A stretch of 18,776 nt of DNA from a candidate division WOR-1 bacterium RIFOXYB2_FULL_46_45 (GTDB taxonomy: Bacteria > Margulisbacteria > WOR-1 > XYC2-FULL-46-14), in contig MEUE01000002.1 in assembly GCA_001771585.1 (NCBI GenBank), positions 1-18,776 on the forward strand, written 5' to 3'. A program made the position numbers and the translations under genes. Positions 1 to 18,776 of this stretch are shown here, one piece after another (position 1 is the first letter of the stretch; every line of letters begins with the position of its first letter). The notes under the pieces were generated by a model. It made no database searches and had not been told where the DNA came from. It saw only the letters and a program-made list of their open reading frames with translations.

Positions 1-3
1 GTA

Positions 4-99
4 TACCACATCTACCGAAAAGGAGGGAAAACAAAAAGGTGGGGGAATGCAGCATAAGGAGAAGAATGAGGGAGGAAACCCCACCCCCACCATTTCTGC
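4..99 (+). repeat. Left terminal inverted repeat (96 bp, perfect)
   Basis: Positions 4-99 are identical to the reverse complement of 18681-18776. The match continues with one mismatch (position 100) to about 107. One strand is strongly purine-rich. Inside the repeat are a dyad of 8-bp arms GGTGGGGG (38-45) and CCCCCACC (84-91), and a 9-bp dyad ATGCAGCAT (47-55). These could be binding sites for an end-recognition protein, which is inference. The identity of both ends is seen directly and marks the window as a bounded element, either a transposon-like insertion or a linear replicon. Confidence 0.97.
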
Positions 100-155
100 G
101 CTATTTTAGGAACGTTTTGGGATAAAGACGGCCTGGGTTAAGAGCTCCAAAAGGA

Positions 156-211
156 GCACTGTTTTACACCTGCCTGCCGGCAGGCAGGTCTTAGTGGCAC
201 TATTTTACACC
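156..211. repeat. Pair of 15-bp direct repeats around a palindrome
   Basis: GCACTGTTTTACACC (156-170) and GCACTATTTTACACC (197-211) differ at one base and start 41 bp apart, nearly four helical turns, so bound proteins would sit on almost the same DNA face. They flank the palindrome at 168-189, and the second copy lies directly upstream of the -10 element of the recombinase-ATPase gene. They may be an operator or accessory recombinase sites (inference). Confidence 0.7.
168..189. repeat. 22-bp perfect palindrome
   Basis: The two 11-bp halves, ACCTGCCTGCC (168-178) and GGCAGGCAGGT (179-189), are exact reverse complements with no loop. From memory, this core recurs many times in candidate-phylum genomes as an interspersed palindrome; that is recollection, not a search. 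It may be a genomic repeat that landed here rather than an element-specific site. Confidence 0.85.
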
Positions 212-217
212 AGGGCG

Positions 218-226: not shown

Positions 227-231
227 ATTAC

Positions 232-1701
232 ATGTTCACCGGGGTTGAATATCTAACCCAAGACGAGGTTAGCGCCTTAATCGCTACCCTAAAAAGCTCC
301 CGCGATCTCGCCATTGTCCGGCTTCTGCTCGGTACCGGGGTATATCGAAACGAAATCCACGATCTGAATATTGAGTCAATCGACTGGGAAACCAAGACGC
401 TGCGGTTTAATGGTTCCCGCCCAAGAAAAATCCCCCTAAACGACGAAACATATAACGCCCTGTCGAGCTGGTCGCAGGAAAGAATCGACAACGCGTCAAA
501 CGCCCTGTTCACAACTTCAAGGGGCAAGCCGGTCCGTTTGTCGGCCCGCGCCATCGACCGCCTCATAAAAAAATACGGGGAAGAGGCTGGCATCAAGAAA
601 AGCATCTCGGCTCAGACCCTGCGCAACACCTTCGCGGTCCGCCTTTTTTCCATGGAACCGTCGCTTGATAACGCGGCATATATTTTGGGAATCACCGCTC
701 CCAAAGCGCTCCGCCGCTACCTCAAAGCCGCGCAGATGGAAAAAGCGGGTGGGGTACCCAGGGAGGAACTTTTAAAACTGGATCGGCGGCCGAAGATCGT
801 CAAACAAATCACCAATCTAATCCAACGCAAACCCAAAGAAGCCAGGATCATAGAGCCGGTCCCGATCAACAAAGAGGACTCAACCATCGGCCGCGACGCT
901 CTCCTCGCGGATATCCGCCAAAACCTGGACAAAGGGCTTTCGACTCTTTTGACCGGCGAAATCGGCATGGGAAAGACCCATCTTTTGAAGCTCATCGCCA
1001 AAGAAAAGGGTTGTTTGTATCTGGATTCTCCAACCCCAATCCGGCAGTTTCTCCAAAAGATTTGCGAGAAGTATTGCCCGGACTGGAACAAGCGCCTGCC
1101 GCAGAAAAACCGTTCCGGCGTAAAAGAGATAACCGAGCTGCTTACCGGCGTTTTCGCGGGATGCGCGCGAAAAGAGACGCTGATCATCGACAACCTCGAC
1201 AAACTGCGGCTTTCGGATGTTGGTCCGATTTTGTCGCTTGCCGATTACTTCGTTATCCTAGCCGCCGCGGACGAGACCAAAGAGCGTTTGAAGCAGGTCT
1301 GGTGGAAGTTCAAGAAAATCGAACTGCCGCCGCTTGATTCCGAATCCGAGAAGGCCCTGATCAAGCAGCTGACTGCCGGAATGGTGATCGAGGATTATAA
1401 TTTGCTGGAGACCCACATCATCTCCCTGGCCGGCGGCGTGCCGCTGGCGATTGTGGAGATGGCCAATCAATTGAGCGGCCATCCAAAGATTAAAGATACC
1501 GACGTGCGCGAACTTTACCACGAGTCGGGGGTCCGCTACCGGGACTGGTCGTCGCTCCTTTTTGTCGTCTGGGGCGCGGCGATGGTTTTCCGGTTCCTTG
1601 CTCTGGGGGTGCACAGTTTTGAGAACTATATTTTGGCCGGTTTCAGCATGGCGGTTATCGCAACCGCCACCAGGATTTTGAGAAGTTTTGGGAGGAGATA
1701 A
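232..1701 (+). CDS. Tyrosine recombinase fused to AAA/STAND-like ATPase and membrane tail
   Basis: The 489-aa protein starts directly in a tyrosine recombinase catalytic domain (about 6-170) with no N-terminal core-binding domain. Visible residues are box I Arg39 (in TGVYRNEIHDL), a likely beta-hairpin Lys66, Arg131 in QTLRNTFA and candidate nucleophile Tyr163 in LRRYLKA. Two usual histidines are replaced: HxxR by Gln128-x-x-Arg, and LGH by LGI. Residues 205-430 form a P-loop ATPase with Walker A GEIGMGKT (242-249) and Walker B TLIIDNLD (316-323). The GGVPLAIVEMA motif (401-411) resembles the GxPLA box of STAND/NB-ARC ATPases. The C-terminus has two hydrophobic helices (about 440-457 and 465-480), implying membrane anchoring. 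No SD is seen; the start is supported by the following recombinase-like LTxxEVxxLI motif and by the promoter position. It may be an ATP-regulated recombinase or a DNA-binding partition/end-binding protein; the exact function is unknown. Confidence 0.85.
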   Translation: MFTGVEYLTQDEVSALIATLKSSRDLAIVRLLLGTGVYRNEIHDLNIESIDWETKTLRFNGSRPRKIPLNDETYNALSSWSQERIDNASNALFTTSRGKPVRLSARAIDRLIKKYGEEAGIKKSISAQTLRNTFAVRLFSMEPSLDNAAYILGITAPKALRRYLKAAQMEKAGGVPREELLKLDRRPKIVKQITNLIQRKPKEARIIEPVPINKEDSTIGRDALLADIRQNLDKGLSTLLTGEIGMGKTHLLKLIAKEKGCLYLDSPTPIRQFLQKICEKYCPDWNKRLPQKNRSGVKEITELLTGVFAGCARKETLIIDNLDKLRLSDVGPILSLADYFVILAAADETKERLKQVWWKFKKIELPPLDSESEKALIKQLTAGMVIEDYNLLETHIISLAGGVPLAIVEMANQLSGHPKIKDTDVRELYHESGVRYRDWSSLLFVVWGAAMVFRFLALGVHSFENYILAGFSMAVIATATRILRSFGRR

Positions 1702-1703
1702 GA

Positions 1704-3011
1704 ATGCTCGCGCCGACGCATAGCGTGTTCGGAGTCTTTTTAACGCTCATCATACTTGCCCTGTTTGGGGTAAAGTTGAGCCTGCATTGGACGATCATGC
1801 TTTTCGCGATACTCGGGGCGCTCCTGCCGGACGCCGACCACCCGGCTTCGATCATCGGCCGGTTCCTTTATCCGATTTCATCGAGAATAGAAAGAAGATT
1901 CGGTCACCGCACCGTCACCCACTCTTTGATCGGCTGGATGAGCGCCACCATCAGCGCAAGTGTCCTAATCGCTTTTGTAAGTTTGATCCCGCTGATTTCA
2001 AGATGGGGCTGGTCGGATCTGCCGGTTCGCTGGGCGGCGGCTTTTTCAATCGGCTACTTTTCCCACATTGTACTTGATATGTTCAACAAGCGCGGCTCAC
2101 AGCTCTTCTGGCCGCAGGAGGTGAGGGATGTTATTCCGCTTAACCACCGCTACCGGATCAATTCCGGCTCCCGTCCCGAAATTGTCGTTTTCATAATCAT
2201 CGTGTTGATGCTGGCTTTGACCCTGCCGATTTCAAAATACGGGATCGGAAGTTCTCTCCACTGGCTTTTGGCGACCTCCGGCTCCGCGATTGAAGAATTC
2301 AAATCGTCAAACCTGGTTTCATATCTGGAATTCAAAGGATATTTCAAAGATACCAAGCAGCCAATCTCCGCCACGGCCGAAATTCTGGATGTGGTTAACG
2401 AAAGGATCGTTATCCTTTTGGACGGCAAAATTTACACCATCAGCGATGAGCTGGCTTCCGATATTATCGCCGAGAAAATGAGAGTCAAGCAGGGGAAGCG
2501 GCCGGTCCAAGTTGAGAGAAAAGAGTTTAAGGACAAAAGCCGTGAATATCTTGAGTCGCAGATACCGGACAAGGCTCTTGTTTCCGGTACGATCCATCTG
2601 CCGGAAGGGATGAAAGTTACTCTCCCCGCCGGCGCCGGCTCGTTTAATATTTTCGAGCAAAAGGGCGGCGATTTATATTTGCGCTTCGCCGGCAAAAAGC
2701 AAATTCGGGAACTGGCGCTGACGGAGCAGTTTGATCTGCAGAGGAAGCGTGATCTGGTCGATCTCTCCGGCTTTCACGCGCGGGCGAGAAAGATCAGAAG
2801 CCAGATTACGGAAGCGGGCGAAGAGTACGAGGGCTTGACGGAACTGGGCAAGCAGGCGCTGTTGGGGAAAGAGGGGATCGAAAAACAGAATGCCCGTATC
2901 GCCGAATTGCAAAGCCAGCTGGCCGAAGTCAATCTGAATATTGAGGAAGTGCAGTTGCGGATAAAATCTAGGAAGTTTGTCTATTCGGGAGAGGTTTATA
3001 TTCGATTGTAG
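1704..3011 (+). CDS. YdjM-family membrane metal-dependent hydrolase with long C-terminal extension
   Basis: This 435-aa protein has the YdjM/DUF457 pattern: His6 in the N-terminal THSVFG, LLPDADHP (40-47), GHRTVTHS (67-74, His68 and His73) and SHIVLDMFNKRG (120-131), followed by LFWP. Hydrophobic segments lie near 10-45, 75-100, 108-125 and 158-178, so it should be an inner-membrane protein with a histidine/aspartate metal site. The substrate of the family is poorly defined. Residues about 200-435 form an unusual soluble extension with a beta-rich part and a charged coiled-coil-like stretch (about 365-420). The SD GGAGGAG lies just upstream, and only two bases separate the gene from the preceding stop, so the two genes form an operon. 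The pairing of two membrane proteins suggests a shared role at the envelope, possibly in transfer or anchoring (inference). Confidence 0.85.
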   Translation: MLAPTHSVFGVFLTLIILALFGVKLSLHWTIMLFAILGALLPDADHPASIIGRFLYPISSRIERRFGHRTVTHSLIGWMSATISASVLIAFVSLIPLISRWGWSDLPVRWAAAFSIGYFSHIVLDMFNKRGSQLFWPQEVRDVIPLNHRYRINSGSRPEIVVFIIIVLMLALTLPISKYGIGSSLHWLLATSGSAIEEFKSSNLVSYLEFKGYFKDTKQPISATAEILDVVNERIVILLDGKIYTISDELASDIIAEKMRVKQGKRPVQVERKEFKDKSREYLESQIPDKALVSGTIHLPEGMKVTLPAGAGSFNIFEQKGGDLYLRFAGKKQIRELALTEQFDLQRKRDLVDLSGFHARARKIRSQITEAGEEYEGLTELGKQALLGKEGIEKQNARIAELQSQLAEVNLNIEEVQLRIKSRKFVYSGEVYIRL

Positions 3012-3013
3012 GA

Positions 3014-3030
3014 GCAGATCAATGATCTGC
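3014..3030. repeat. 17-bp inverted repeat upstream of the cargo operon
   Basis: GCAGATC (3014-3020) and GATCTGC (3024-3030) are perfect arms around AAT. The dyad lies just after the YdjM-like stop codon and about 20 bp upstream of the next -10 element. No U-tract follows, so it is not a typical terminator. It could be an operator for the winged-helix regulator encoded next, or a copy of an interspersed repeat. Confidence 0.6.
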
Positions 3031-3049
3031 CCAATTGTCCGATTTGGTT

Positions 3050-3058
3050 TGATATAAT
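3050..3058 (+). promoter_or_regulatory. Extended -10 promoter for the cargo operon
   Basis: TGATATAAT gives an extended -10 (TG at 3050-3051) with TATAAT at 3053-3058, 22 bp before the ATG at 3081. A convincing -35 at 17 bp is absent. It would drive the regulator-like gene and probably the whole rightward series, since no other clear promoter or terminator is seen before 14.3 kb. Confidence 0.6.
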
Positions 3059-3080
3059 AAGCGTATAGGGAAAAGTCAAA

Positions 3081-4556
3081 ATGAGAAAACACAGCATTTT
3101 TATAAGCGCAAACCAGAAAGAGCTAAAAGACGAAAGATTGGCTGTCAGGGATGTAATCCAAAACAACGCGGCTCTTAGGAATTTTTTTGATGTCTTTCTT
3201 TTTGAGGATTTGCCGGCCAAAGGGAAACACCCCGTTTCAACATATCTTAAACAGGTTGAGAAAAGCGATATTTACCTGGGAATAATCGGGGATGAATACG
3301 GGGCCAAAGGAAAAGACGGGTATTCCCCAACGGAGAAAGAATTTAGCCGCTTTCTCAAAGCTAATCCCAAGGGCGAGATCATAATTTTTATCAAGGGAAA
3401 AGATGATTCCAAAAGAGACAAAGACACGCGGAAATTCGTAAAAACCGTCAGGGATTCTTTTATCTACAAAAGATTCTTTGGCATAGACGGATTAAAAACC
3501 CAAACATTAAACAGCTTGATTACTTATCTTGACGAAAATGGCGTTCTGGCCAAAAAACCTTTTGACCAATTGGCCCGCAAAGATGTTCCCTACGGAGCGA
3601 TAGACGAAAAACAAGCACAAGATTTTCTGGAAAATAGGGCGGTCAAGCTTAATGTTGCTGTTCCCAAAATTTCCATAAGGGACTTTTTGGTTAAAACCTT
3701 GAAAGTGGTGCAAAAAGAAAACGGCGAGCTACGTCCCACTAATGCCGGACTGCTCTTTTTCGGAAAAGATCCTTCCGCCTATATTCCCCAGAGTGAAATA
3801 AGGATAGCGCGGTTTAAGGGCGTAGACCGCACTGAATTTATGGATTCAAAGGAAATAACGGGTCCTATTTACAAAATGCTGGATGAGGTTGAATTGTTTT
3901 TTAAAAGAAATACCCGCTTAGCCGGAAAGATTGTCGAGTTTAAGCGCGTCGATATCCCCGAATATCCTTTTGAAGCGATAAGGGAAGCGGTCATTAACGC
4001 TGTCGCCCACAGGGACTATGCCTACCACGGAGCGCCGATCATGTTTTCAATATTTGATGACCGGATAGAAATAAGCAATCCCGGCGGCTTATTGCCCGGC
4101 TTAAACATAAAGAGGCTGGAAGGGCATCATTCCACCAGGAATAAAAAGATCTGCGATATTTTCCATGAGACAAAGGATATGGAAAAATTCGGCACCGGCA
4201 TCGGAAAAATGAAAAGGATTATGAATGAACACGGGTTGGCCAAGCCGGTATTTTGGGAAGAAGGGGATTTCTTTGTGGCAAAGTTTTACGGCCCCGGAGA
4301 AAAGATTTTAGATCTGGTTCCAAATATACCAGCGGAGAGACAGACAGATTTGCGGGAATTAGGGTTAAATGACAGGCAGATTGAAGCCTTGCGGCTAATG
4401 ATGAATGAAGGCGAAAAAATAACAATCAAAAAATATGTCAGATTATCTGGAAACATCAGTGGCAAAACAGCCCAAAGAGACATAAAAAGACTAGTTGAAA
4501 TTGGATTTGTTAAAAAAACAGGATATAAAAAGGGGGCATATTTTGAGGCGGCATAG
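3081..4556 (+). CDS. DUF4062 / GHKL-ATPase (RecG-related regulator type) / winged-helix protein
   Basis: The 491-aa protein has three parts. Residues 1-130 match DUF4062 (start KHSIFISANQKELKDERLAV, then YLGIIGDEYG), a TIR-like fold family found beside nucleotide-binding and conflict proteins. Residues about 165-410 match the divergent ATP-binding domain of proteins usually labelled RecG-related or AlbA_2-type regulators: an N-box EAIREAVINAVAHRDY (298-313), DDRIEISNPGGL (326-337) and a glycine lid FGTGIGK (370-376). Residues about 427-491 look like a winged helix. The usual N-terminal AlbA_2 DNA-binding domain is replaced by DUF4062. It heads the cargo operon, behind its own promoter and a dyad, and could be a regulator or a sensor/effector of the defence block. 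The domain calls are good; the function is inferred. Confidence 0.85.
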   Translation: MRKHSIFISANQKELKDERLAVRDVIQNNAALRNFFDVFLFEDLPAKGKHPVSTYLKQVEKSDIYLGIIGDEYGAKGKDGYSPTEKEFSRFLKANPKGEIIIFIKGKDDSKRDKDTRKFVKTVRDSFIYKRFFGIDGLKTQTLNSLITYLDENGVLAKKPFDQLARKDVPYGAIDEKQAQDFLENRAVKLNVAVPKISIRDFLVKTLKVVQKENGELRPTNAGLLFFGKDPSAYIPQSEIRIARFKGVDRTEFMDSKEITGPIYKMLDEVELFFKRNTRLAGKIVEFKRVDIPEYPFEAIREAVINAVAHRDYAYHGAPIMFSIFDDRIEISNPGGLLPGLNIKRLEGHHSTRNKKICDIFHETKDMEKFGTGIGKMKRIMNEHGLAKPVFWEEGDFFVAKFYGPGEKILDLVPNIPAERQTDLRELGLNDRQIEALRLMMNEGEKITIKKYVRLSGNISGKTAQRDIKRLVEIGFVKKTGYKKGAYFEAA

Positions 4557-4576
4557 TATGTCTCTAAAAACTCAAA

Positions 4577-4603
4577 AATGTCCCTAAAAATGTCCCTAAA
4601 AAC
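4577..4603 (+). repeat. Out-of-frame tandem repeat coding KNVPKNVPKN
   Basis: Two tandem copies of AATGTCCCTAAA lie just past the stop codon of the GHKL-ATPase gene. Read in the frame beginning at 4577 they encode NVPKNVPKN. From memory, such NVxKN/NVTEN repeats occur as linkers between the ATPase and winged-helix parts of this protein family. The copies are neither in frame with nor inside the upstream gene, so they look like a remnant of an alternative C-terminus. Confidence 0.5.
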
Positions 4604-4619
4604 AAAGGCAAAAAATATC

Positions 4620-5159
4620 ATGAAAAAATTCATCTGTCTTTTGTTGATAACCTGTTTCCTGATCCCTGTTTTTCAGATCCCAATTTTCGCAGCAGAATAT
4701 GTCCTTGCGCCGGGTGATACATTGGAAGTTAAAATCCTCGGCAAAAAAGATCTCGACACCAAACAAACCATCGCTCCCGACGGAACCATCTCTCTGCCTT
4801 TTTTGGGCAGAGTGGAAGCACAAGGGCAAACGCTGAAAGAATTCAACAACAACCTAAAATCTGCTTTTTCGAGATACATAGCAAATGCTCAAGTAGTCGT
4901 CTTTCTAACTCCCCGGCCGATTTATGTAATTCAGCATGATATCAAAAAGAACGTTTGGGATGTGAAGAAAGCCGAATCGGTTGATGAAGCGCGCGCGTAT
5001 CTGGGTCCCCCTGATAAGGGGGACTACAGGGGGTTAAAGCATGGTGATATTGTAGCCGTCTCCGTCAGCCAAAAGCCCGATTGGTGGGAGGATAATTGGT
5101 ATAAGGTACTCACAGGGGTGGCGGTTGCGGTGGGAGTTTATGCTACTTTACACAAATGA
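4620..5159 (+). CDS. Secreted polysaccharide-export-domain protein (short Wza-like)
   Basis: Starting at 4620 gives 179 aa with a clear signal peptide (MKK, hydrophobic core to about 22, cleavage near IFAA/EY); an earlier ATG at 4578 would only add a repeat-coded leader. The mature N-terminus YVLAPGDTLEVKILG through DGTISLPFLGRVEAQGQTL matches the Poly_export domain of Wza-type outer-membrane export proteins. The protein is about half the usual length and lacks recognisable SLBB repeats and a lipobox. It ends in a hydrophobic segment (about 162-177). A repeat-like insert encodes residues near GPPDKGDYRG. Its stop overlaps the SNF2 gene start as ATGA, suggesting translational coupling. It may be an envelope partner of the defence cargo or a hitchhiking gene. 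Confidence 0.8.
   Translation: MKKFICLLLITCFLIPVFQIPIFAAEYVLAPGDTLEVKILGKKDLDTKQTIAPDGTISLPFLGRVEAQGQTLKEFNNNLKSAFSRYIANAQVVVFLTPRPIYVIQHDIKKNVWDVKKAESVDEARAYLGPPDKGDYRGLKHGDIVAVSVSQKPDWWEDNWYKVLTGVAVAVGVYATLHK
5006..5035. repeat. Interspersed-type palindromic repeat inside the export-domain gene
   Basis: A C5-type arm followed by GATAAGGGGGACTACAGGGGG makes a short hairpin, with pyrimidine and purine blocks around a GATA loop. It codes in frame for the GPPDKGDYRGL part of the protein. From memory, the same motif is a frequent interspersed repeat in several bacterial phyla, so it probably inserted into the reading frame. Confidence 0.55.
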
Positions 5160-8098
5160 ATATCACTGACTACCATGCGAAATATTTTGCTTATGAACTG
5201 ACTAAACGATGTGCTTCGGATAGCTTAGAGAAACTGTCTTCAACTCTCTCTAACGCGCAAGTTGACCTTAATCCTCATCAGATTGAAGCAGCACTTTTTG
5301 CCTTTAGATCTCCGCTTTCAAAGGGTGCGATTTTGGCCGATGAAGTTGGATTGGGAAAGACAATTGAAGCGGGGCTAGTCCTTTCCCAAAAATGGGCGGA
5401 AAGAAAAAGAAAAATTCTGCTGATTGTCCCTTCCAGTTTACGTAAACAATGGAACGCGGAGCTTCAAGAAAAGTTTTTTTTGCCGTCGATTATTTTGGAG
5501 ACAAAATCATTTAACCAATACGTAAAAGACGGGAATCTTAATCCCTTTGACCAAGAGGGGGTTATCGTTATTAGTTCGTACCATTTTGTTAGGGCAAAAG
5601 CGTCTTATGTTAAACAAACAAAATGGGATATTGCCGTTATTGATGAAGCCCACCATCTTCGCAATGTGTATAAATCAAGCAATAAAATAGCCAAGGAGAT
5701 AAAAAACGCCTTGAGCGAGGTGCCGAAGATATTGCTGACCGCGACTCCCTTGCAAAATTCATTGCTTGAATTATACGGACTGGTTAGCGTGATTGATGAT
5801 CATCTGTTCGGCGACCTGAAAAGTTTTAAGGCGAAATATGCCCGCGTCTCACGCGAGCAGGATATTTTTGAGAGTGAGCTTGGATTGGTGGAGCCAAAAC
5901 AGGAGATGTTTACCGATCTTCGTAATCGTTTAAAACCGGTATGCACGCGTACCCTGCGCCGGCAGGTTCTGGAATATATCAAATACACCAAGCGCATCCC
6001 TTTAACCCAGGATTATGTGCCAACCGAACAGGAAACAGAGCTTTACAACGGCATGTCCGAGTATCTCCAGCGGCCGAAGTTGTTCGCTCTTCCTTCAAGC
6101 CAGCGCCAGTTAATTACTCTTATCCTGCGCAAGCTTCTTGCCTCTTCATCCTTCGCGATTGCCAGTACCCTCGATAGTTTGGTTTATAAGCTGCAAAAAC
6201 TTATTGAAGAAGCCGAGAACCGGCAGTTTATCGAAGATACCGGCATTGCGGGACTCGACCAGAACTTTGAAAATTACGATGAGCTTTATGATGAATGGAA
6301 TGACAACGAGGAAGATGAGGAAGAAGAAGAGGACAAAAAAGTTATTTATACCAAAGAAGATATTGAATTAATGAAAACAGAACGGAATGATCTTGAAAAA
6401 TACCGCGATTTAGCCAAGGAAATATGGAAAAACTCAAAAGGGGAGGCCTTGCTTACCGCTCTCAAAAAGGGCTTTGAAATGGCGACGGAATTAGGGGGCA
6501 GAAAAAAAGCGATTATTTTTACCGAATCGAGGATTACCCAAGATTATCTTTTGGAATTGCTTTCAAAAGACGGCTACGCCGGAAAAATAGTTCTTTTTAA
6601 CGGAACAAATAGTGACCAAAGGTCAAAAGAGATATATCGGGACTGGTTAGCGAAATATAAAGATTCGGACAAAGTTACCGGTTCCAAAACAGCCGATTCA
6701 CGAGCCGCCATTGTGGAACATTTTAGGGATGAGGCGGAAATCATGATCGCGACCGAAGCCGGCGCGGAAGGGGTCAATCTCCAATTTTGTTCGCTCCTGA
6801 TTAATTACGATCTCCCCTGGAACCCCCAGCGGATTGAACAGCGGATTGGGCGCTGCCACCGCTATGGGCAGAAGCATGATGTGGTGGTAATCAACTTTGT
6901 AAACCGCAAAAACGCTGCCGACCAGCGTGTTTATGAACTGTTGGACCAGAAGTTCAGTTTATTTAAGGGTGTGTTTGGAGCGAGCGATGAAGTGCTGGGA
7001 AGCATTGAGTCGGGAGTTGATTTTGAAAAACGCATCGCCGCAATTTACCAGTCTTGCCGTTCGGAGGACGCGATCAATTCCGCTTTTGATGCCCTCCAGG
7101 AAGAAATGGAAGACAGCATTCAGCATAATTTGAGCGATACGCGCCAGAAATTGCTGGAAAATTTTGACTCCGAAGTGCATGAGCGGTTAAAAGTAAACAT
7201 TCGCGAAAGCAGGGAATATCTTGGTGTTTATGAAAAGTGGTTATGGGATATTACGCGATATTATTTGGGTGATAATGCCGACTTTATTGAAAAGGATTAT
7301 TCTTTTACGCTTAAAAACAATCCTTTTCCGGAAGAAAAGATCGATTCCGGCCCTTACAAGATCGGTAAAAATGTGGAAGACGCGCATATTTACCGGCCGG
7401 GGCACATATTGGCGCAGAAAATTTTAAGCGAACTGAAAAAGAAATCTTCTCAAGAAGCCGAAGTATTATTTGATTATTCAAAAAATCCGACGATCATTTC
7501 GGTCCTAAAGCCGCTGGTAGGTAAAAGCGGCATTATGAAGGTTAGCAATTATACGGTAGAGGCGTTTGAGGCGGAAGATCATGTGATTGTTTCCGCGATA
7601 GACGAGAAAAGCGAACCGATCGCGCAGGATATTGCCAAGAAACTCTTTTATCTTTCGGCGGAAGTGAGGCCAGCGGCCGCGAACCTTTCCGAAGACGAGA
7701 AAAAAAGGGCAAATGAGTTGGAAGAGCGGGAGATTGGGCTTATTTCATCAAAGAGCGCCGAACGCAACAGTGAATTTTTTGACAATGAAGTCGATAAGCT
7801 TGATAAATGGGCGGATGACATGAAGACGGCGCTCGAGCTTGATTTAAAGAGGCTGGATATTGAGATTAAAACCGCCAAGACGCAGGCCAAGAAGATCCTT
7901 AATTTGGAGGAAAAAGTCAAAGTCCAACGCGGGATAAAGGATCAAGAAAAAAAGCGCAATGAGATGAGGAAAAAATTATATGAGGCGCAGGATGAGGTTG
8001 ATACCAGAAAAGAGCAGCTTATTGAGCGGGTGGAAGCGCGGCTTAAACAGAGGATCAAGCTGGAAACGCTGTTTTGTTTGAGGTGGAAGGTAGTATAA
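5156..8098 (+). CDS. SNF2/RapA-family helicase (DrmD-like)
   Basis: This 980-aa superfamily 2 ATPase has motif I DEVGLGKT (62-69), motif II DEAH (163-166), motif III LLTATPLQN, and lobe-2 motifs TEAGAEGVNLQ and RIEQRIGRCHRYGQ. The order and spacing are those of RapA/HepA and of DrmD, the SNF2 helicase of class 1 DISARM. An acidic, Glu-rich insert at about 375-400 separates the two lobes, and the C-terminal 130 residues are charged and coiled-coil-like. The ATG sits in ATGA with the preceding gene. Lying upstream of a Mod/Res pair, it probably translocates on DNA to support restriction or exclusion of foreign DNA. No other DISARM core gene (drmA, drmB, drmC) is seen. Confidence 0.9.
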   Translation: MNITDYHAKYFAYELTKRCASDSLEKLSSTLSNAQVDLNPHQIEAALFAFRSPLSKGAILADEVGLGKTIEAGLVLSQKWAERKRKILLIVPSSLRKQWNAELQEKFFLPSIILETKSFNQYVKDGNLNPFDQEGVIVISSYHFVRAKASYVKQTKWDIAVIDEAHHLRNVYKSSNKIAKEIKNALSEVPKILLTATPLQNSLLELYGLVSVIDDHLFGDLKSFKAKYARVSREQDIFESELGLVEPKQEMFTDLRNRLKPVCTRTLRRQVLEYIKYTKRIPLTQDYVPTEQETELYNGMSEYLQRPKLFALPSSQRQLITLILRKLLASSSFAIASTLDSLVYKLQKLIEEAENRQFIEDTGIAGLDQNFENYDELYDEWNDNEEDEEEEEDKKVIYTKEDIELMKTERNDLEKYRDLAKEIWKNSKGEALLTALKKGFEMATELGGRKKAIIFTESRITQDYLLELLSKDGYAGKIVLFNGTNSDQRSKEIYRDWLAKYKDSDKVTGSKTADSRAAIVEHFRDEAEIMIATEAGAEGVNLQFCSLLINYDLPWNPQRIEQRIGRCHRYGQKHDVVVINFVNRKNAADQRVYELLDQKFSLFKGVFGASDEVLGSIESGVDFEKRIAAIYQSCRSEDAINSAFDALQEEMEDSIQHNLSDTRQKLLENFDSEVHERLKVNIRESREYLGVYEKWLWDITRYYLGDNADFIEKDYSFTLKNNPFPEEKIDSGPYKIGKNVEDAHIYRPGHILAQKILSELKKKSSQEAEVLFDYSKNPTIISVLKPLVGKSGIMKVSNYTVEAFEAEDHVIVSAIDEKSEPIAQDIAKKLFYLSAEVRPAAANLSEDEKKRANELEEREIGLISSKSAERNSEFFDNEVDKLDKWADDMKTALELDLKRLDIEIKTAKTQAKKILNLEEKVKVQRGIKDQEKKRNEMRKKLYEAQDEVDTRKEQLIERVEARLKQRIKLETLFCLRWKVV

Positions 8099-8159: not shown

Positions 8160-8753
8160 ATGGGAAAATCGTTTCACGGGAATGTTGTTTTGAATTTTAG
8201 AAAAGATTCACTGTCTGAATTTGGTGCATATGCTGAAGCATATCATGAAGCAGGAAAATTATTGGTTTGCCGATTAGATGAGAGCGAGGGGTATAGTGAT
8301 ATTCAAGCTTGCCCAATAGTTTTTTTGTATCGACACGCACTGGAGTTGTATATCAAAGGGATAATTATTGACGGAAATAATATTTTATCGTTATTGGGGA
8401 AGACTCCTGTTGTTGATACCAACGATCTTGGAAAACACGATTTGTTGCCATTGATTCCTGCAATCAAGCAAGTATTTACTGCTATTGGCTGGCTTACAGA
8501 AAATAAGGGAACGAAGGAAGTGGAGGAAGTCGTTGAAATCATTAAGTGTTTTAATGGGCTTGATTCAAATTCTTTTTCCTTTAGATATCCGGTAAATAAA
8601 AAAGGATTGTCAATTCTTTCCGAAAATTTTATTTTAAATGTTGTTGAATTCGCTAAAAAAGCGGATCCCGTTTTTGATTTACTTGATGGCGCAATAGTTG
8701 GGTTATCTGAAGAATGGCAAACGAGAGCGGACAATGCTTACGAAAACAATTAA
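8160..8753 (+). CDS. HEPN-like protein
   Basis: This 197-aa protein is mostly helical. The segment ACPIVFLYRHALELYIKG (50-67) and the later GKHDLLPL (91-98) and SFSFRYPVNKKG resemble HEPN-type proteins often found in defence loci, which act as RNases or nucleotide-binding partners. A strict Rx4-6H catalytic motif is not obvious, so catalysis is uncertain. A purine-rich SD-like AAAAAGGA is close to the ATG. It lies 61 bases after the SNF2 stop in the same direction, consistent with one operon. Confidence 0.65.
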   Translation: MGKSFHGNVVLNFRKDSLSEFGAYAEAYHEAGKLLVCRLDESEGYSDIQACPIVFLYRHALELYIKGIIIDGNNILSLLGKTPVVDTNDLGKHDLLPLIPAIKQVFTAIGWLTENKGTKEVEEVVEIIKCFNGLDSNSFSFRYPVNKKGLSILSENFILNVVEFAKKADPVFDLLDGAIVGLSEEWQTRADNAYENN

Positions 8754-11452: not shown

Positions 11453-14305
11453 ATGAAACCAGAAGAAGCGCTTAAATATCTAAGTGGAGCGATGAGCTTG
11501 CGTGCTCCACAAGCAAAAAGCTTAGAACTCTTTGCTGGTTATTTGCAATCGCCAGCAGGGCAAAAATTGCTGGCGCGCATGAACAGGGAAATCAAGAGGG
11601 ATACGGCTGATATCCTTTTAGAAAGTAAAAAATATTTTAGTGCTATTCCTGAAGCACGAGAGTTTGAGGAATATGAAAGAGCCTTTCCGGCTTACACTTT
11701 TGCCTTGGCTACCGGAGTAGGCAAGACCAGGTTGATGGGTGCTTTTGTAGCTTATTTATACTTGGTTTATAATATTCAGCATTTTTTGATTGTTGCGCCC
11801 AATTTGACCATCTATCGCAAGCTTTATGATGATTTTAGTAAGGCCAATAATCCTAAGTATGTATTTAAGGGTCTTCAGGAAGTAAATACAAGTACTGTAA
11901 AAGTTATTACCACCGACAATTACACTGATTATAGACAACAATCACTTTATAAGAATCAAATTGAAATAAACATATTTAATGTTCAGCAATTTGCGCAAAA
12001 AGACATGGCTGCTGGTCGAGGCATAGTTAAAGGCTCGGAAATATATGGGCAAAAGGATGACGGAACCCTTGCTTCATATTTTGATTATCTTAAGGAATTG
12101 GATGATTTAGTAGTAATGCTTGATGAGGCTCATCATTATCATGCCGATGCTGCGCTTGGTGCCTTAGATATTCTTGATCCAATTTTTGGTCTGGAAATGA
12201 CAGCTACGCCGTATCTTGGGACGCAAGGATCAGGAAGAAACGCGCGCCAAATAAGGATGAAAAATGTTCTGTATTCCTACAACCTCGGTGATGCAATAAG
12301 GGGAAAGCTGGTTAAAGATCCGTGGGTAGGCACAGAAGCCGATGTGGATTTTAGCCAGTTTGATCCTGATTCGATAGAGACAGATGCGCGCAAATTGCAA
12401 CTTGCGGCCTTTTTTCACGAACGCGCTAAAAACGCGCTTAAAGAATATGCGCTGGAAAATAATAAGCCGATCGTAAAACCGGTTTTGTTGGTGGTTGCTA
12501 AAGATACAAAACACGCAGGAGCGTTGCGCGCCTTAATTAATAGTGATGATTTTCGTGGCGGAGAATTCAAAGGCAAGGTTATTGAGATACATACTAAACT
12601 TCGTGGGGATGAGGCTGATGAAAATATTGAAAAACTGATATTGCTGGAACACCCTGATAATCCTGTAGAGATTGTTATCCACGTTAACATGCTCAAAGAG
12701 GGGTGGGATGTGACCAATGTTTATACCATCGCACCGTTGCGTGAGGCAGCCGCGGCAATTTTAACCGAGCAAACAATTGGCCGCGGTTTGCGCTTGCCTT
12801 ATGGGGAAAGAACTGGAGTCCCTTTGGTGGATCGATTAGTGCTTGTCGCACACGAACAATTTGCTAGAGTCGTGGCGCTTGCTAAGGATTCACCGCTTAT
12901 TCAAGGACAAGTAGAGCAAATTTCTGAGCGGGAAGTCAAAGAAATAAAGGTGCTGACCGAAGTCCAACCAGTTATTCTTGATATGGTAGAAAAGGAAATA
13001 ACGCAAAATAAAGTGATAATGCAGGAGGTACAGAAGAATGCGGAAGAATTGGTTTTAAAGCAGCCACAATCAGAGACTATGGAAACTGGTGTGCGAGAAC
13101 AATTTGTTGAGGCTAAAAAAGCAGAAATAATTAGTGGCCTAACTAAAGAAACAATCAAAAATATCCAGTTTTCTAAGTATCACGGTCAACAGCCGAGTAC
13201 TACGACTGAATTGTCCTTTGGCCCCGATACCTTGTTTGGGGCCTTCAGCATTGAAGCAAAAGACGAGCTTTCCAATATTGCTAAAAAATCCGAAGAGACC
13301 ATGGAAAAAAGGAACATACCAATTCCCCGATTAATGCTTACTCCTAGTTTTGGCGAGCTTATTCTTGAACAGTTTGACCTAGACACAAGCATTGATAAAT
13401 TGCGCTCATATACCAATGAGCGGGCTATCCTTGAAGAGCAATTGCAAAATGACCGTGAGAAAAATCTATTTGGCGAAGAAGTCCCAGGACGCAAAATGTC
13501 GCAACTGACTAGGGTGACCAGTTTTGGTGGGCACACTAGGCAAACTCCACAAAGTACAATTATTGCCGCACTTTTAGATTTTCCTTTAGTTGATTATGAT
13601 GATCCTGCGCAAAAACCGTTGCTTTTGAAATTAGCCGAGCAAGCTGTGGCGCATTATAGTAAAAAAGCGATTGATGATGACAATTTAGCGTTGATTATTG
13701 AGAGCAACGCTCGATCTATAGCCGAAGATATTTATAAACAGATATTGAATCATAAGGAATTACGATCCGAAGGGTATCTTGAGTCCAATATTCGGGAGCC
13801 CAAGCCATATTTGGAAAATTATAATATTTCTTTGTCGTTTGGAGAAAAGCCTTTTTCGCTAGAGTCGCAGATAGACACGTTTAATGCAAAGATAGTTTTT
13901 GGCTACTTTAAAAAGGCCTGCCATTTTATGTATCGATTTGATTCATCTGACGAGGCAAGACTGGCTTATTTGTTGGATAGGGATGAGGCGGTTGAGGATT
14001 GGTTGCGTCCAGCGCCGAATCAGTTTGAAGGGCTGTACTGGCGAGATGCGGAAGGTGAATCTCACCATAGATATGAACCGGATTTTGTTGTGGAATTAAA
14101 AGATAGGATTGTTTTGGTCGAAGTTAAGCCGGAGAGTGAGATTGACACCTCAAGCGTCCAAGCGAAAAAGACAACTGCAGAGAAGTATTGTGAAGTAGTT
14201 AATAAAAATATCGGTAAATATGGCATTGTTAAGCCATGGAAGTATGTGATAGTACCAACGGAGAGGATAACGATTCAGTCGACGGTTATAGGTTTGTTAC
14301 TTTAG
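11453..14305 (+). CDS. res: Type III restriction endonuclease subunit (Res)
   Basis: This 950-aa protein has superfamily 2 helicase motifs: Walker A ATGVGKTR (86-93), DEAH (224-227), TATPY, and motif VI QTIGRGLRLP. The C-terminus carries a PD-(D/E)xK-type nuclease, PDFVVEL with Asp877, then Glu890 and Lys892 in LVEVKPE. Full length with both active centres present, it should be an active Res that uses ATP to communicate between unmodified sites and cut DNA together with Mod. It is the last gene of the cargo operon. No clear hairpin terminator follows its stop. Confidence 0.95.
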   Translation: MKPEEALKYLSGAMSLRAPQAKSLELFAGYLQSPAGQKLLARMNREIKRDTADILLESKKYFSAIPEAREFEEYERAFPAYTFALATGVGKTRLMGAFVAYLYLVYNIQHFLIVAPNLTIYRKLYDDFSKANNPKYVFKGLQEVNTSTVKVITTDNYTDYRQQSLYKNQIEINIFNVQQFAQKDMAAGRGIVKGSEIYGQKDDGTLASYFDYLKELDDLVVMLDEAHHYHADAALGALDILDPIFGLEMTATPYLGTQGSGRNARQIRMKNVLYSYNLGDAIRGKLVKDPWVGTEADVDFSQFDPDSIETDARKLQLAAFFHERAKNALKEYALENNKPIVKPVLLVVAKDTKHAGALRALINSDDFRGGEFKGKVIEIHTKLRGDEADENIEKLILLEHPDNPVEIVIHVNMLKEGWDVTNVYTIAPLREAAAAILTEQTIGRGLRLPYGERTGVPLVDRLVLVAHEQFARVVALAKDSPLIQGQVEQISEREVKEIKVLTEVQPVILDMVEKEITQNKVIMQEVQKNAEELVLKQPQSETMETGVREQFVEAKKAEIISGLTKETIKNIQFSKYHGQQPSTTTELSFGPDTLFGAFSIEAKDELSNIAKKSEETMEKRNIPIPRLMLTPSFGELILEQFDLDTSIDKLRSYTNERAILEEQLQNDREKNLFGEEVPGRKMSQLTRVTSFGGHTRQTPQSTIIAALLDFPLVDYDDPAQKPLLLKLAEQAVAHYSKKAIDDDNLALIIESNARSIAEDIYKQILNHKELRSEGYLESNIREPKPYLENYNISLSFGEKPFSLESQIDTFNAKIVFGYFKKACHFMYRFDSSDEARLAYLLDRDEAVEDWLRPAPNQFEGLYWRDAEGESHHRYEPDFVVELKDRIVLVEVKPESEIDTSSVQAKKTTAEKYCEVVNKNIGKYGIVKPWKYVIVPTERITIQSTVIGLLL

Positions 14306-14711: not shown

Positions 14712-14885
14712 ATGTCAGTTGTTCAGCATCCGTGCAGGGTTTGTCCCCAGGATCAGTTCTGTTCGGTTGGGCGGCGGGCGCACTGCGGGCGGTTTGTCCG
14801 CTACACGCAGGTTTTGCTTCGCTTGCGCCAGCATCAGCGGTTGGTGCGGGATCTCGCCCGGCTGGTTGTTTTCAGGCAGGGGTAG
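14712..14885 (+). CDS. Small cysteine-rich, likely zinc-binding protein
   Basis: This 57-aa basic protein begins MSVVQHPCRVCPQDQFCS and has Cys-x2-Cys, further cysteines at spacing 5 and a later Cys near AHCGRF, with histidines nearby, fitting a small zinc-binding fold. The C-terminal half is Arg/Leu-rich and helical, which could bind nucleic acid. A strong SD AGGAGGT (14698-14704) lies seven bases before the ATG, and the stop codon sits in the loop of a terminator. I do not recognise the family. It may be an element-encoded regulator. Confidence 0.7.
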   Translation: MSVVQHPCRVCPQDQFCSVGRRAHCGRFVRYTQVLLRLRQHQRLVRDLARLVVFRQG

Positions 14886-14906: not shown

Positions 14907-14911
14907 GGCTT

Positions 14912-14932: not shown

Positions 14933-14951
14933 GTAGGAGGGAGGTGCTTTT

Positions 14952-15131
14952 ATGAAGAATTGTTGTGTCTGCGGTTCGTTTGTGGTTCCGGTCAACAACG
15001 GCGTTGATCACATCGCGTTTCGGTTGGCCGGTTCCAATCGAGAGAAATTGGTTTGCCGGTCCTGCTTGAACGCGATTCTCGATCAGATCGAATACGGCTA
15101 TTCGGTCCAGTACGATTACGCCGATTGCTAA
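14952..15131 (+). CDS. Small zinc-ribbon-like protein
   Basis: This 59-aa protein begins MKNCCVCGSF and later has LVCRSCLNAI: two Cys-x2-Cys knuckles about 32 residues apart, the pattern of a small zinc ribbon. The SD GGAGGT (14940-14945) is six bases before the ATG, and a strong terminator follows the stop. The C-terminal part is acidic and aromatic (Tyr-rich). I do not recognise a named family. It is codirectional with the previous small gene and convergent with the recombinase operon, and may be a DNA- or protein-binding accessory factor of the element. Confidence 0.75.
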   Translation: MKNCCVCGSFVVPVNNGVDHIAFRLAGSNREKLVCRSCLNAILDQIEYGYSVQYDYADC

Positions 15132-15137
15132 AGAGAG

Positions 15138-15173
15138 GCCTGCGTATCACTCTGGTACGCGGGCTTCTTTTTT
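15138..15173 (+). terminator. Terminator between convergent operons
   Basis: Arms GCCTGCGTA (15138-15146) and TACGCGGGC (15156-15164) pair with one G-U and are followed by TTCTTTTTT. The stop codon of the leftward recombinase (15147-15149) lies in the loop, so the hairpin may also help end that transcript. Confidence 0.85.
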
Positions 15174-16103
15174 GGTCGTTTTCTCCCTCGGATGGTGTTT
15201 TTTGAGAACCCTTTTCAAATCGGAGATCGCGACTCTGGTATAAATTTGCGTCGAACTCAAAGAAGCGTGCCCCAAAAGCGCTTGAACATGGCGGATGTTC
15301 ATTCCGTTGTTTACCAGATGAGTCGCGCAAGTATGCCGAAAGGTGTGGGGGCTAACTTTTTTCGTAAGCTTCGCCATCCTGGCATATTTTTTTATAGTCG
15401 CGTCAAGGCAGGAGTGTCCGATTCGAGTGCCCCGATTTGACAAAAAAAGCGCGTCGGTCGGTTTAAAGTCGCGCAGAAATACCGGCCGGATATGACAAAG
15501 GTATCCTTCCAGGCATTGGCAGGCGGTCTTTCCGATCGGGACATAACGATCTTTGTTCCCTTTTCCATGGCGAACCATCAGCGTCGCGTTGGGGCAGTCG
15601 AGATCGGACAAATCCAAGTTTCGCAGCTCCTCGTTCCTGATCGCGGAAGAATAGAACAGTTCCAGAATCGCCCGATCGCGGTAGCCGGTGGGAGTCTGAT
15701 GATCCGGCTGTTCAAGTATCTTTTTCGCTTCCGCGGGAGAGAGGATATCTCTGGGGAGGCACTTGGGTTCTCTCGCGTACCTGATCCCCCTGGTCGGGTC
15801 TTTTAAGATAAAATCGTTGTCTGCCATGAAACGACAAAAGTAGATCGCGATTTTAAGGGTGTTGTTTTGTGATTTTACGGCGTTATTCCGGCCAAATTTG
15901 TTTTTCTCGCCGGCGATAAAGGCCTGATAATCTTGTAAAAGTTCCTTTGTGATCTGATCGGGAGAATCAACTTGGTAACTTTTCAAATAGCCCATAAACT
16001 TGCCCAAAGTCCCGCGGTAGTTTCCAATGGTCCGGCGGGAGAAGTTGGCGATTAAGAGCGACTCAATATATTTCGCCGCCAGATGTTCAATGCTTAATCC
16101 CAT
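15147..16103 (-). CDS. Tyrosine recombinase B
   Basis: This 318-aa XerC/D-like integrase is complete: an N-terminal SAM-like core-binding domain (about 5-100, including RRTIGNYRGTLGKFM) and a catalytic domain with Arg156 (AIRNEEL), Lys184 region (GKGNKDRYVPI), His253-x-x-Arg256 (HTFRHT), His279 (LLGHAS) and nucleophile Tyr288 (STQIYTR). The start has an SD AGGGGGAA and overlaps the end of recombinase A by 17 bases, so the two are coupled and may act as a heteromeric pair, as XerC/XerD or TnpA/TnpB of Tn554 do. It would cut and join the element's ends or resolve multimers. Confidence 0.95.
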   Translation of the reverse strand: MGLSIEHLAAKYIESLLIANFSRRTIGNYRGTLGKFMGYLKSYQVDSPDQITKELLQDYQAFIAGEKNKFGRNNAVKSQNNTLKIAIYFCRFMADNDFILKDPTRGIRYAREPKCLPRDILSPAEAKKILEQPDHQTPTGYRDRAILELFYSSAIRNEELRNLDLSDLDCPNATLMVRHGKGNKDRYVPIGKTACQCLEGYLCHIRPVFLRDFKPTDALFLSNRGTRIGHSCLDATIKKYARMAKLTKKVSPHTFRHTCATHLVNNGMNIRHVQALLGHASLSSTQIYTRVAISDLKRVLKKHHPREKTTKKEARVPE

Positions 16104-17019
16104 TTAAATTCCCCCTTTCCCTCGGATGATATTTTTGGTGAAAATCTTTAAGTGTAGAGATATTAACCTGGGTATAAATTTGGGTAGACTCGATGCTTGA
16201 ATGCCCCAACATGGCTGAGATCGCGTGCAGCGGTGCCCCTTCTTCTAAAAGATGAGTCGCGAAACAATGCCTGAAGGTGTGGGGATGGAGCGCCTTGGTG
16301 ATTCCGGCCTTCTTTTTGATCCTGACAATAATGCTCCACAGTCCTTCTTTGGACAAGTGTGATCTTTCTCCCTCCGCCAGGAAGAGATAGGGGAGATGAG
16401 GGGCGAGATTAGTCCTTATTTTCAAATAGCGCTCCAGCCAGCCGGCGGCGCTTTTCCCAAGCGGCAGCTGGCGGTCTTTTTTTCCTTTCCCTTCATGCAC
16501 AAAAAGGGTGCCGCCCTTTGGGTCAACATCAGTCATCTTTAAATTCAAAAGCTCGCCGCTGCGCAGGCCGCAGCCGTAAAACAATTCCAGTATCGCGCGC
16601 AGTTTTATTCCGCGAAAAGAATTCACATCCGGAACATCCATGACGCGGACCATCTCTTCTTTGCTCAAAAGGCTTTTCGGTAATGTCGCTTCAGTTTTTG
16701 GCGCCCGCAATCTGCTGGCCGGATTGTGGCCGATCATCTCCTTATCTTCCAGGAGATTATAGAAGCGTTTTAGGGCGAGGATATAATAGTAAAGAAATTT
16801 GGGGCCGCTCTTTTGGCCGTAATGGTTAACCTCGTTGAAGACGGAAGTTAAAAAAGTATTGAGTATGTCGGGGGTGGTGTTTTGGAGATCGATATTGATT
16901 TTTTCCAGGAACCCCAAAAAGCGCCTGATTTTAAACCAGAGTATCTTGATACTTGCCGGCGCCAGCTGGTTTGCTTTAAGGTAATCGGAGAATTCATCAA
17001 GAAGCTTTTGGTTATCCAT
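16087..17019 (-). CDS. Tyrosine recombinase A
   Basis: Starting at 17019 (MDNQKLLDEFSDYL) gives a 310-aa standard integrase; a longer frame to 17169 would add a tail with no family match. Residues 1-95 form the core-binding domain. Catalytic residues are Arg153 (GLRSGE), the Lys180 region (GKGKKDRQLPL), His247-x-x-Arg250 (HTFRHC), His273 (LGHSS) and Tyr282 (IYTQV), a full set. An SD-like GGGGGAAG precedes the ATG, which overlaps the end of the ATPase gene as ATGGATAA. It is similar in layout to recombinase B but clearly divergent, suggesting an old duplication with separate roles. Confidence 0.95.
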   Translation of the reverse strand: MDNQKLLDEFSDYLKANQLAPASIKILWFKIRRFLGFLEKINIDLQNTTPDILNTFLTSVFNEVNHYGQKSGPKFLYYYILALKRFYNLLEDKEMIGHNPASRLRAPKTEATLPKSLLSKEEMVRVMDVPDVNSFRGIKLRAILELFYGCGLRSGELLNLKMTDVDPKGGTLFVHEGKGKKDRQLPLGKSAAGWLERYLKIRTNLAPHLPYLFLAEGERSHLSKEGLWSIIVRIKKKAGITKALHPHTFRHCFATHLLEEGAPLHAISAMLGHSSIESTQIYTQVNISTLKDFHQKYHPRERGNLNGIKH

Positions 17020-18637
17020 ATCTCTTCCCCCGCCCAGCGCCCAGAGACACTTTTTTGCTTTTCCCGCTTCCAAAATCTGGGCTACGCCCAGATTTACCCA
17101 GATTTCCAGCTTGCCCCGAGCGAAGTCGAGGGGGTGATAAATTAATTTTGAGGCGGTCGTTGCCGTCAATTCCGCTGTTTAGCTGGTAGTAATATTTCTT
17201 GCGTGGTCCGCCCGAGATCGGGATCAGATATTCAAGGTCGCGCAGCTCTTTGATGTGGGTCTTAATCTGATAGTGTCCCCATAGGGTAAAATCGCGCACT
17301 TCTTTCCTGGTGAATTTGGTTTCATTACTATCGGTTGATTTCCCGACCATCTCTTTGATGGCATTCAAGAGCGTCCGGCTCGACGGCGACAGTTCTTCCA
17401 GAGTATGCGCGAAAATTTGTTGGGCTAAGTCGTTGGCTCTTTTGATGTCGTCGGGAATTACTTCAATATATGGAACTTCTTTCCCTTGGAGATTGACGCT
17501 TTTCTGTTTCCTCTGATGTTGATTAAGAAAAGCGATGGTCTTGATCAAGTTCAGGTATTTTCGATGGTCCCTTCGGGTGCGCAGGGTTTCGTCGTTAAAG
17601 GTTAAACTTTCAGCGTAGGGATTTATAACTTTAACCGGATAGAGGAGCCGCTGGGCGTTCTGATGTTTTTTGATTATTTTTTCCGTCTGCTCTCTTATCA
17701 GCAAGCCCTTCAAGGTCTCAAGCTCCCGCTGTCTTTGCAAAATCTGCCTGGTCTGCTCCTGCGATTCATCGATGGTCAACCGCAAAAAGCGGTTCGCGGT
17801 CTCATAATCCATCTGGACATTCGAGGTTGTAAAGAAGATGCTGACCGGCCCTTTTACCCGATAGACCTCGGTCTTAAGTTTGCCGGTAGAAGAGTCCCGT
17901 CCGGTCGTCGCGATCGACAGATGTTTTGAAGATTGGATCGCGCGCAGGGAATAGTTTGCCTCTTTCGAGCCGGCCTCTTCTTCAATCGCCAGGACCTTGT
18001 TTTGCAGAGCGAATTCGTCCTGATAGAAGAGTGCTTTGCCGGTCAAGGCGGTGTACTTGACAAAGTCCTCCGGAGGGAGGAGGGAGAGGATCGCGTCTTG
18101 AAGTGATGATTTTCCGGCGGCGCTCCTTGAAGTTATCATAATTGAGAGTGGATCATCCAGTTTTCGGGAAGTGATCGCCAGATACGCCGTCAGTTTATTC
18201 ATCTCTTCGCCGATGTAGCCAAGGGACGACAGGTCTTTGGTTATTTCCTCAAACAGGGTGGGGGACTTCAGGAATTCAAGGGCTTCGGTCCTCTCTTTCG
18301 CGCCCATGATTTCCAGCTTGCCGCCCGATGCCGGACTCCCCTTTTTCAGTTCTTCTTTTTTCTCTTCCAGGAGAGTGATGATTTTATTCAAGTCGCTTTC
18401 GACGGTTTTGAATTCTTCTTCAAGCAGGACGGAACAGTTTTTTGCAAACGCCCTCCGGGCGGCGCTTGAATAGAGGTTTACGATGTCGATGTGATAACGG
18501 TCTTTCGCGTCGTCATTTTTGAAGACCTTGGCGTTTACTTTTAACTGATAGGCCGCGAACTGGATATTTTTAAAAACATAACAACGGTCTTTAATCGTGA
18601 TATATATCCCATCTTCGACCAATTGTGTCTTGATCAT
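17012..18637 (-). CDS. Primase-associated helicase-like ATPase (lacking CHC2/Toprim part)
   Basis: This 541-aa protein matches the ATPase half of CHC2 zinc-finger primase-like proteins of mobile elements: MNKLTAYLAITSRKLDDPLS, a Walker A variant SRSAAGKSS (170-178, Ser in place of the first Gly), Walker B VLAIEEEAGS (215-224), sensor-like FFTTSN (269-273) and ANRFLRL with a likely arginine finger. The N-terminus instead has about 70 unrecognised residues and a charged coiled coil (75-105). A C-terminal winged-helix-like region (about 425-490) precedes a Gly/Ser/Lys-rich tail (490-541) that contains a repeat-coded PPRLRSGQAG. The SD AAGGAG lies seven bases from the ATG, only 43 bases inside the right terminal repeat. 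It is probably a replication or end-processing motor. Confidence 0.85.
   Translation of the reverse strand: MIKTQLVEDGIYITIKDRCYVFKNIQFAAYQLKVNAKVFKNDDAKDRYHIDIVNLYSSAARRAFAKNCSVLLEEEFKTVESDLNKIITLLEEKKEELKKGSPASGGKLEIMGAKERTEALEFLKSPTLFEEITKDLSSLGYIGEEMNKLTAYLAITSRKLDDPLSIMITSRSAAGKSSLQDAILSLLPPEDFVKYTALTGKALFYQDEFALQNKVLAIEEEAGSKEANYSLRAIQSSKHLSIATTGRDSSTGKLKTEVYRVKGPVSIFFTTSNVQMDYETANRFLRLTIDESQEQTRQILQRQRELETLKGLLIREQTEKIIKKHQNAQRLLYPVKVINPYAESLTFNDETLRTRRDHRKYLNLIKTIAFLNQHQRKQKSVNLQGKEVPYIEVIPDDIKRANDLAQQIFAHTLEELSPSSRTLLNAIKEMVGKSTDSNETKFTRKEVRDFTLWGHYQIKTHIKELRDLEYLIPISGGPRKKYYYQLNSGIDGNDRLKINLSPPRLRSGQAGNLGKSGRSPDFGSGKSKKVSLGAGRGKRYG
17114..17133. repeat. Interspersed-type repeat in the ATPase C-terminal tail
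   Basis: CCCCGAGCGAAGTCGAGGGG is an imperfect palindrome. On the minus strand it encodes the PPRLRSGQ part of the tail. From memory this sequence and peptide recur in many genomes of uncultured bacteria as an inserted repeat. Its presence suggests the ATPase originally ended near residue 490 and was extended. Confidence 0.6.
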
Positions 18638-18680
18638 TTAATGACTCCTTTAAAAGCTAGATAATGGAATTAAAAATAGA

Positions 18681-18776
18681 GCAGAAATGGTGGGGGTGGG
18701 GTTTCCTCCCTCATTCTTCTCCTTATGCTGCATTCCCCCACCTTTTTGTTTTCCCTCCTTTTCGGTAGATGTGGTA
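18681..18776 (-). repeat. Right terminal inverted repeat (96 bp, perfect)
   Basis: The exact reverse complement of 4-99, with its internal dyad at 18689-18696 and 18735-18742. The window ends on its last base. The adjacent ATPase gene begins just inside it, so the repeat probably lies in or next to that gene's promoter. Confidence 0.97.

Follow-up and report, generated by a model that had tools for sequence, protein, structure and literature searches.

Candidate division WOR-1 bacterium RIFOXYB2_FULL_46_45 is represented by a genome assembly (G000; 1,698,899 bp, 99.49% complete) of four contigs, one of which, the 18,776-bp contig MEUE01000002.1 (C2), is in its entirety the window analysed here. 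Our tentative reading is that C2 is a mobile element, plasmid-like or integrative, that belongs to the Margulisbacteria (WOR-1 group) and joins two modules. On the right lies an operon encoding an AAA+ ATPase and two Xer-type tyrosine recombinases (Xer2 and Xer1); on the left, a degenerate recombinase-ATPase fusion, here called IntATP, is accompanied by a YdjM-family membrane protein, a secreted Poly_export protein and a defence cargo. We prefer this reading because an inverted repeat stands at both ends of C2 and nowhere else in the 99.5%-complete genome, because the other contigs (C1, C3 and C4) form a chain without C2 whose gap edges are unrelated to it, and because the two transcription units converge inward at a hairpin. 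It is further favoured because the intact Xer1 and Xer2, together with the ATPase, match the primase-Xer operons of plasmids, and because of the phylogenetic grouping of IntATP, the absence of a palindrome of C2 from the host chromosome and the foreign composition of the cargo. Relatives of G000 appear in public collections under the names Candidatus Margulisiibacteriota, WOR-1 and Saganbacteria.

Inverted repeats at the ends of the contig

As the original prediction had stated, the bases at 4-99 recur at 18681-18776 in exact inverted form (96/96 bp), and with one mismatch the arms extend to 104 bp (103/104, 99%). The repeat is not due to chance, because after shuffling, ends of equal composition have no inverted match longer than 11 bp. 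It is not strongly folded, and an Rfam search gave no match. The terminal features are as follows.

1..3, plus strand: GTA outside the left repeat; the outermost bases of the repeat, TAC, are its reverse complement
4..107, plus strand: left inverted terminal repeat, purine-rich, with 4-99 identical to the right copy
168..189, no strand: repetitive extragenic palindrome (REP) CCTGCCTGCCGGCAGGCAGG, just inside the left repeat
18673..18776, minus strand: right inverted terminal repeat, whose end is the last base of the contig

No further copy of the repeat was found in G000, nor a half-copy at the other contig ends, and the 74 genomes of the phylum that were searched yielded only an 83% match over 42 bp in one of them (G023), possibly the decayed end of a similar element. 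Copies dispersed without the flanking genes, as expected of an ordinary repeat, were thus seen neither in G000 nor in these 74 genomes. The G023 match lies just upstream of a truncated IntATP (L077:57-734, G023:C138).

Terminal inverted repeats at the extremes of a molecule are also seen in the hairpin-ended linear replicons of Borrelia, N15 and Phytoplasma mali (PMC2459194), and C2, with its putative ends, shares this trait. We therefore weighed whether C2 might be a small linear replicon with hairpin-closed or protein-capped ends at the repeats, kept by the ATPase and the Xer pair, and consider it unlikely. The repeats match the contig ends within 0-3 bp and genes run inward from both, but the best support comes from the outer GTA, the expected product of a snap-back through a hairpin tip. 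As a sequence feature this is a weak hint of a snap-back or head-to-head junction, since a three-base GTA/TAC match has a 1-in-64 chance of arising by itself. A search for the telomere resolvase family PF16684 found no match in G000 while one control genome was positive, a result that still leaves room for a distant resolvase, and no gene on C2 has a Pfam match to a terminal protein or PolB; in a genome search for PolB2 the control itself gave no signal. Equally doubtful is a broader form of the idea, in which C2 would be a complete linear (or repeat-bounded episomal) replicon that the ATPase and Xer pair maintain with no known telomere resolvase or terminal protein, and that carries a phylum-specific membrane/DNA-binding defence backbone.

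Relation of C2 to the rest of the assembly

Because the window is the whole contig, its extremes are simply contig ends. Perfect inverted repeats at both ends do not on their own make a contig a complete element, and they may equally mean that the assembly stopped there. Of the complete, repeat-bounded element originally predicted, the repeats therefore stand and the completeness is unproven. Nearly as likely as a plasmid-like or integrative element is a chromosomal or mis-binned fragment: C2 may quite possibly be a repeat-limited piece that is not self-contained and that derives from the host's own gap or from another member of the Margulisbacteria.

The end of C1 overlaps the end of C3 by 75 bp and the start of C3 overlaps the end of C4 by 51 bp. 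These end overlaps join C1, C3 and C4 into a chromosomal chain to which C2 does not obviously belong, and one gap remains. At this gap the starts of C1 and C4 break off within one and the same exact repeat, about 90 bp long and pointing outward in both; the assembly does break at repeats of a length similar to those of C2, which could sit there. Against a chromosomal origin, the genes at the gap edges, which are related to segments of very large proteins, do not carry on into C2 and have no counterpart on it, the terminal repeat has the restricted distribution described above, and both of its copies abut operon starts. Placing C2 in the gap by synteny with a similar locus in the complete genome G011 was rejected, as the edges share no gene with a C2-like locus, and so was a simple circular contig, as the ends of C2 have a direct overlap of at most 3 bp. 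The gap is flanked by inverted paralogous segments related to parts of these giant proteins, for which related genomes have open frames of up to 5,281 aa.

The right module resembles plasmid primase-Xer operons

From the repeats, two transcription units head inward and meet at a terminator-like hairpin. The right-hand unit and the features around the meeting point are listed here.

17012..18637, minus strand: AAA+ ATPase of 541 aa that corresponds to the C-terminal half of a CHC2/Toprim primase and has a ribosome-binding site and ATG of its own; first gene inside the right repeat
16087..17019, minus strand: Xer2, a tyrosine recombinase with a complete set of catalytic residues; probable start ATG at 17019 rather than TTG at 17169
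15147..16103, minus strand: Xer1, a tyrosine recombinase in which every catalytic residue is present; 33-36% identity to the Xer proteins encoded by primase-Xer modules
15130..15172, no strand: strong hairpin resembling a terminator, located between the convergent units
14952..15131, plus strand: small Cys-rich open reading frame of 59 aa with the pattern CxxC...CxxC, preceded by a good ribosome-binding site
14712..14885, plus strand: small Cys-rich open reading frame of 57 aa, likely zinc-binding, preceded by a good ribosome-binding site

Translation of the ATPase would begin 36 bp inward of the right repeat, at a start codon with a ribosome-binding site, and the operon runs on inward from there. 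The protein shares 37-44% identity with the C-terminal half of CHC2/Toprim primases, to which it is homologous, and keeps the Walker residues, which bears out the primase-type ATPase of the original prediction, and it lacks the CHC2 zinc finger and Toprim domains. The sole CHC2/Toprim match in G000 is a chromosomal frame of 583 aa, presumably DnaG. A search of IMG/VR with the ATPase alignment returned only two distant loci, one of them with a stand-alone ATPase. A second REP family, in the region encoding the ATPase C-terminus, was uninformative, having one copy on C1 as well. Both small Cys-rich frames probably encode small zinc-binding proteins.

The order of the operon, a primase ATPase domain followed by Xer-type recombinases in one transcription unit, is that of the CHC2/Toprim-primase-Xer modules of Leptospira and of proteobacterial plasmids, in which the ATPase precedes one or two such recombinases; the C2 recombinases are 30-40% identical to theirs, and the ATPase falls in the identity range given above. 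The module of the Leptospira plasmid NZ_CP092659 consists of a helix-turn-helix protein, CHC2 primase, two tyrosine recombinases, ParA and ParB, whereas C2 has no CHC2/Toprim part, helix-turn-helix protein or ParAB. The proteobacterial relatives include complete circles of 8.8 and 11.3 kb (NZ_CP055112, NZ_CP072857), neither of which has inverted repeats as long as the 104 bp of C2. Although the gene set had originally been described as unclassified, and a mobile-element-like, repeat-bounded unit does fit it, its right operon belongs to a recognisable plasmid module. In proteobacterial plasmids the primase-Xer modules often adjoin hemagglutinin/toxin genes, and CHC2-primase and XerC modules occur there in repeated copies beside hemagglutinin and toxin-immunity genes (L080, L013, L079), where they may help to shuffle toxin cassettes.

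The left module is a variable defence locus of Margulisbacteria

The left transcription unit begins with IntATP and encodes the backbone and cargo proteins listed below.

232..1701, plus strand: IntATP, 489 aa, with a degenerate Xer-type domain, an AAA ATPase whose fold resembles TnsC, MuB and STAND proteins, and a C-terminus that is hydrophobic and membrane-like
1704..3011, plus strand: YdjM-family membrane protein, near IntATP in 9/9 relative loci from other genomes
3081..4556, plus strand: protein with DUF4062 and HATPase_c_4 (cargo)
4578..5159, plus strand: Poly_export (Wza-like) secreted protein, present in 6/9 relative loci
5156..8098, plus strand: SNF2 helicase, similar to DrmD although it scores under the curated cut-off; 74% identity to a protein of the G011 chromosomal locus
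8160..8753, plus strand: open reading frame of no known family
8850..9713, plus strand: open reading frame of no known family
9720..11447, plus strand: type III DNA methyltransferase (Mod)
11453..14305, plus strand: type III restriction subunit (Res) with a TnsA-like endonuclease C-terminus

When aligned with Xer1 and Xer2, IntATP and its 10 relatives (11/11) lack Arg-I and both His while Arg-II and the Tyr are kept, and because of these missing residues IntATP is probably not an active recombinase. Three tyrosine recombinases had been predicted on C2; three Phage_integrase frames are indeed present, but only Xer1 and Xer2 look catalytically competent. In a predicted structure of modest confidence (predicted local distance difference test score, pLDDT, of 71) Foldseek places the first part of IntATP on XerA, and further matches include TnsC, MuB and NLR/STAND-type ATPases. 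IntATP is probably an ATP-dependent, membrane-anchored DNA-binding protein and not an integrase.

Besides a copy on contig C4 of the host that is 47-48% identical to that of C2, IntATP was found in 8 further Margulisbacteria genomes. When about 85,000 species genomes were scanned, matches came from Margulisbacteria only, although the scan used exact degenerate patterns, so that absence elsewhere is unproven. The C4 copy (G000:C4:105936-107372; L039:10942-12399) adjoins a SEC-C protein and an AlbA/HATPase protein and has no YdjM or Poly_export homologues beside it. The IntATP-YdjM-Poly_export locus recurs across Margulisbacteria families (window 232-5159; L040, L042, L044, L046, L047, L048), and we found no published description of it. 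These loci share with C2 the gene order and a variable, partly defence-related cargo: the genes between IntATP, YdjM and Poly_export are unrelated from locus to locus, and some match Lamassu-like or candidate defence models. Unlike C2, they lie on chromosomal or unassigned contigs and lack the Xer-ATPase operon.

The closest parallel is chromosomal. In the complete genome G011, one locus unites IntATP, YdjM and Poly_export with counterparts of the SNF2 helicase (74% identical) and of Mod (66%), and parts of it occur in other genomes, which speaks for C2 being a chromosomal fragment; no long inverted repeats were found around the G011 locus. Since relatives swap cargo and the G011 locus is without such repeats, the combination of repeat and gene set does not, as judged from these sequences, recur as a conserved type of element in any of the genomes sampled.

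The defence cargo named in the original prediction was confirmed as a type III restriction-modification pair, with Mod next to Res, and a DrmD-like SNF2 helicase. The helicase scores 702 bits against a cut-off of 950 and is the only trace of the defence island system associated with restriction-modification (DISARM), which consists of DrmA, DrmB and DrmC with DrmD or a methylase.

Origin of C2

The REP palindrome has one copy on C2 and none in the other contigs of the host (1.68 Mb). Several relatives hold 12-23 copies (22 in G027, 23 in G019), and one G027 copy stands at a similar place upstream of the G027 IntATP. The palindrome is absent from the rest of the host, and C2 is therefore foreign to the host chromosome, being either recently acquired or mis-binned; a REP that is foreign to the chromosome of its own bin and common in relatives also suits a mis-binned fragment. 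The IntATP of C2 groups with that of G027, which belongs to a different family (62%, support 100/100), and not with the C4 copy of the host, a pattern that would be as expected of horizontal transfer. The cargo lies below all 11 host segments tested in composition and both outer modules lie inside the host range; because other WOR-1-group genomes have a similar composition, this does not prove the host, and the likeness of the outer modules to those genomes is again compatible with a chromosomal fragment from one of them.

Comparison with recombinase-based transposons

Because it combines inverted terminal repeats with several genes for tyrosine recombinases, C2 could also be taken for a transposon of the recombinase-in-trio (RIT), strand-biased circularizing integrative element (SE)/GInt or Tn554-like kind with an unusually large cargo, an explanation that we regard as highly improbable. 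RIT elements are about 3.5 kb long, have a repeat of 28-29 bp and contain three tyrosine recombinase genes, ritA, ritB and ritC, which lie side by side and overlap (PMC3414803). They have in common with C2 the multiple recombinases and the inverted repeats; on C2, however, only Xer2 and Xer1 are adjacent, the degenerate IntATP lies 13 kb away, and 104-bp repeats stand 18.6 kb apart and enclose an ATPase. Gene order, repeat length and active sites therefore uphold the predicted distinction from RIT elements. SE and GInt elements carry an intA-tfp-intB-srap operon at one end and imperfect inverted ends of 13-19 bp (PMC10214605), and their two RHRY recombinases, recombinase-like protein without catalytic residues, inverted ends and cargo recall C2. 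In contrast, C2 has the order ATPase-Xer2-Xer1 and 104-bp ends, no srap/ginD partner was seen, and its degenerate protein is a fusion of tyrosine recombinase, AAA and membrane parts at the opposite end, so that this class is contradicted by both gene order and active sites. Also as predicted, no DDE transposase or conjugation gene was seen on C2.

Discussion

If C2 is indeed an element of the plasmid-like or integrative kind, Xer1 and Xer2 would break and rejoin DNA at the repeats or close to them, leading to excision, integration or inversion, and the AAA+ ATPase may act as a helicase or initiator, as judged from its primase-Xer plasmid relatives. The left module, with IntATP, YdjM and Poly_export, the DrmD-like helicase and the type III restriction-modification pair, starts just inside the left repeat and could guard the host, and hence the element, against phages and rival DNA. 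The sequences show the anatomy of C2 (its repeats, gene order and convergent units), the homologies of its proteins and the state of their active sites; from these we infer that C2 might be mobile, recombine by way of its repeats and replicate, and exist free of the chromosome; its native form may be circular, integrated or linear.

Several observations weigh against this. The window is a whole contig, and nothing was seen of flanks, of an empty site or target duplication, or of a second copy. Autonomous replication is doubtful because the ATPase lacks the CHC2/Toprim half and ParAB are missing. The relatives of the left half are chromosomal, the complete G011 locus among them having no long inverted repeats. 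A megablast of the whole window against plasmids gave no match, and IMG/VR returned nothing for a single IntATP or ATPase query, the IntATP alignment or a 22-mer of the repeat.

C2 is in any case a composite of two known halves, a variable defence locus and a truncated relative of the primase-Xer module. The more lasting result may be the IntATP-YdjM-Poly_export locus found across the phylum, and this backbone alone would be useful as a marker for defence genes in Margulisbacteria. If the element is real, it would link a plasmid primase-Xer module to an undescribed IntATP-YdjM-Poly_export backbone that recurs across the Margulisbacteria, a phylum for which our searches turned up no described mobile elements.

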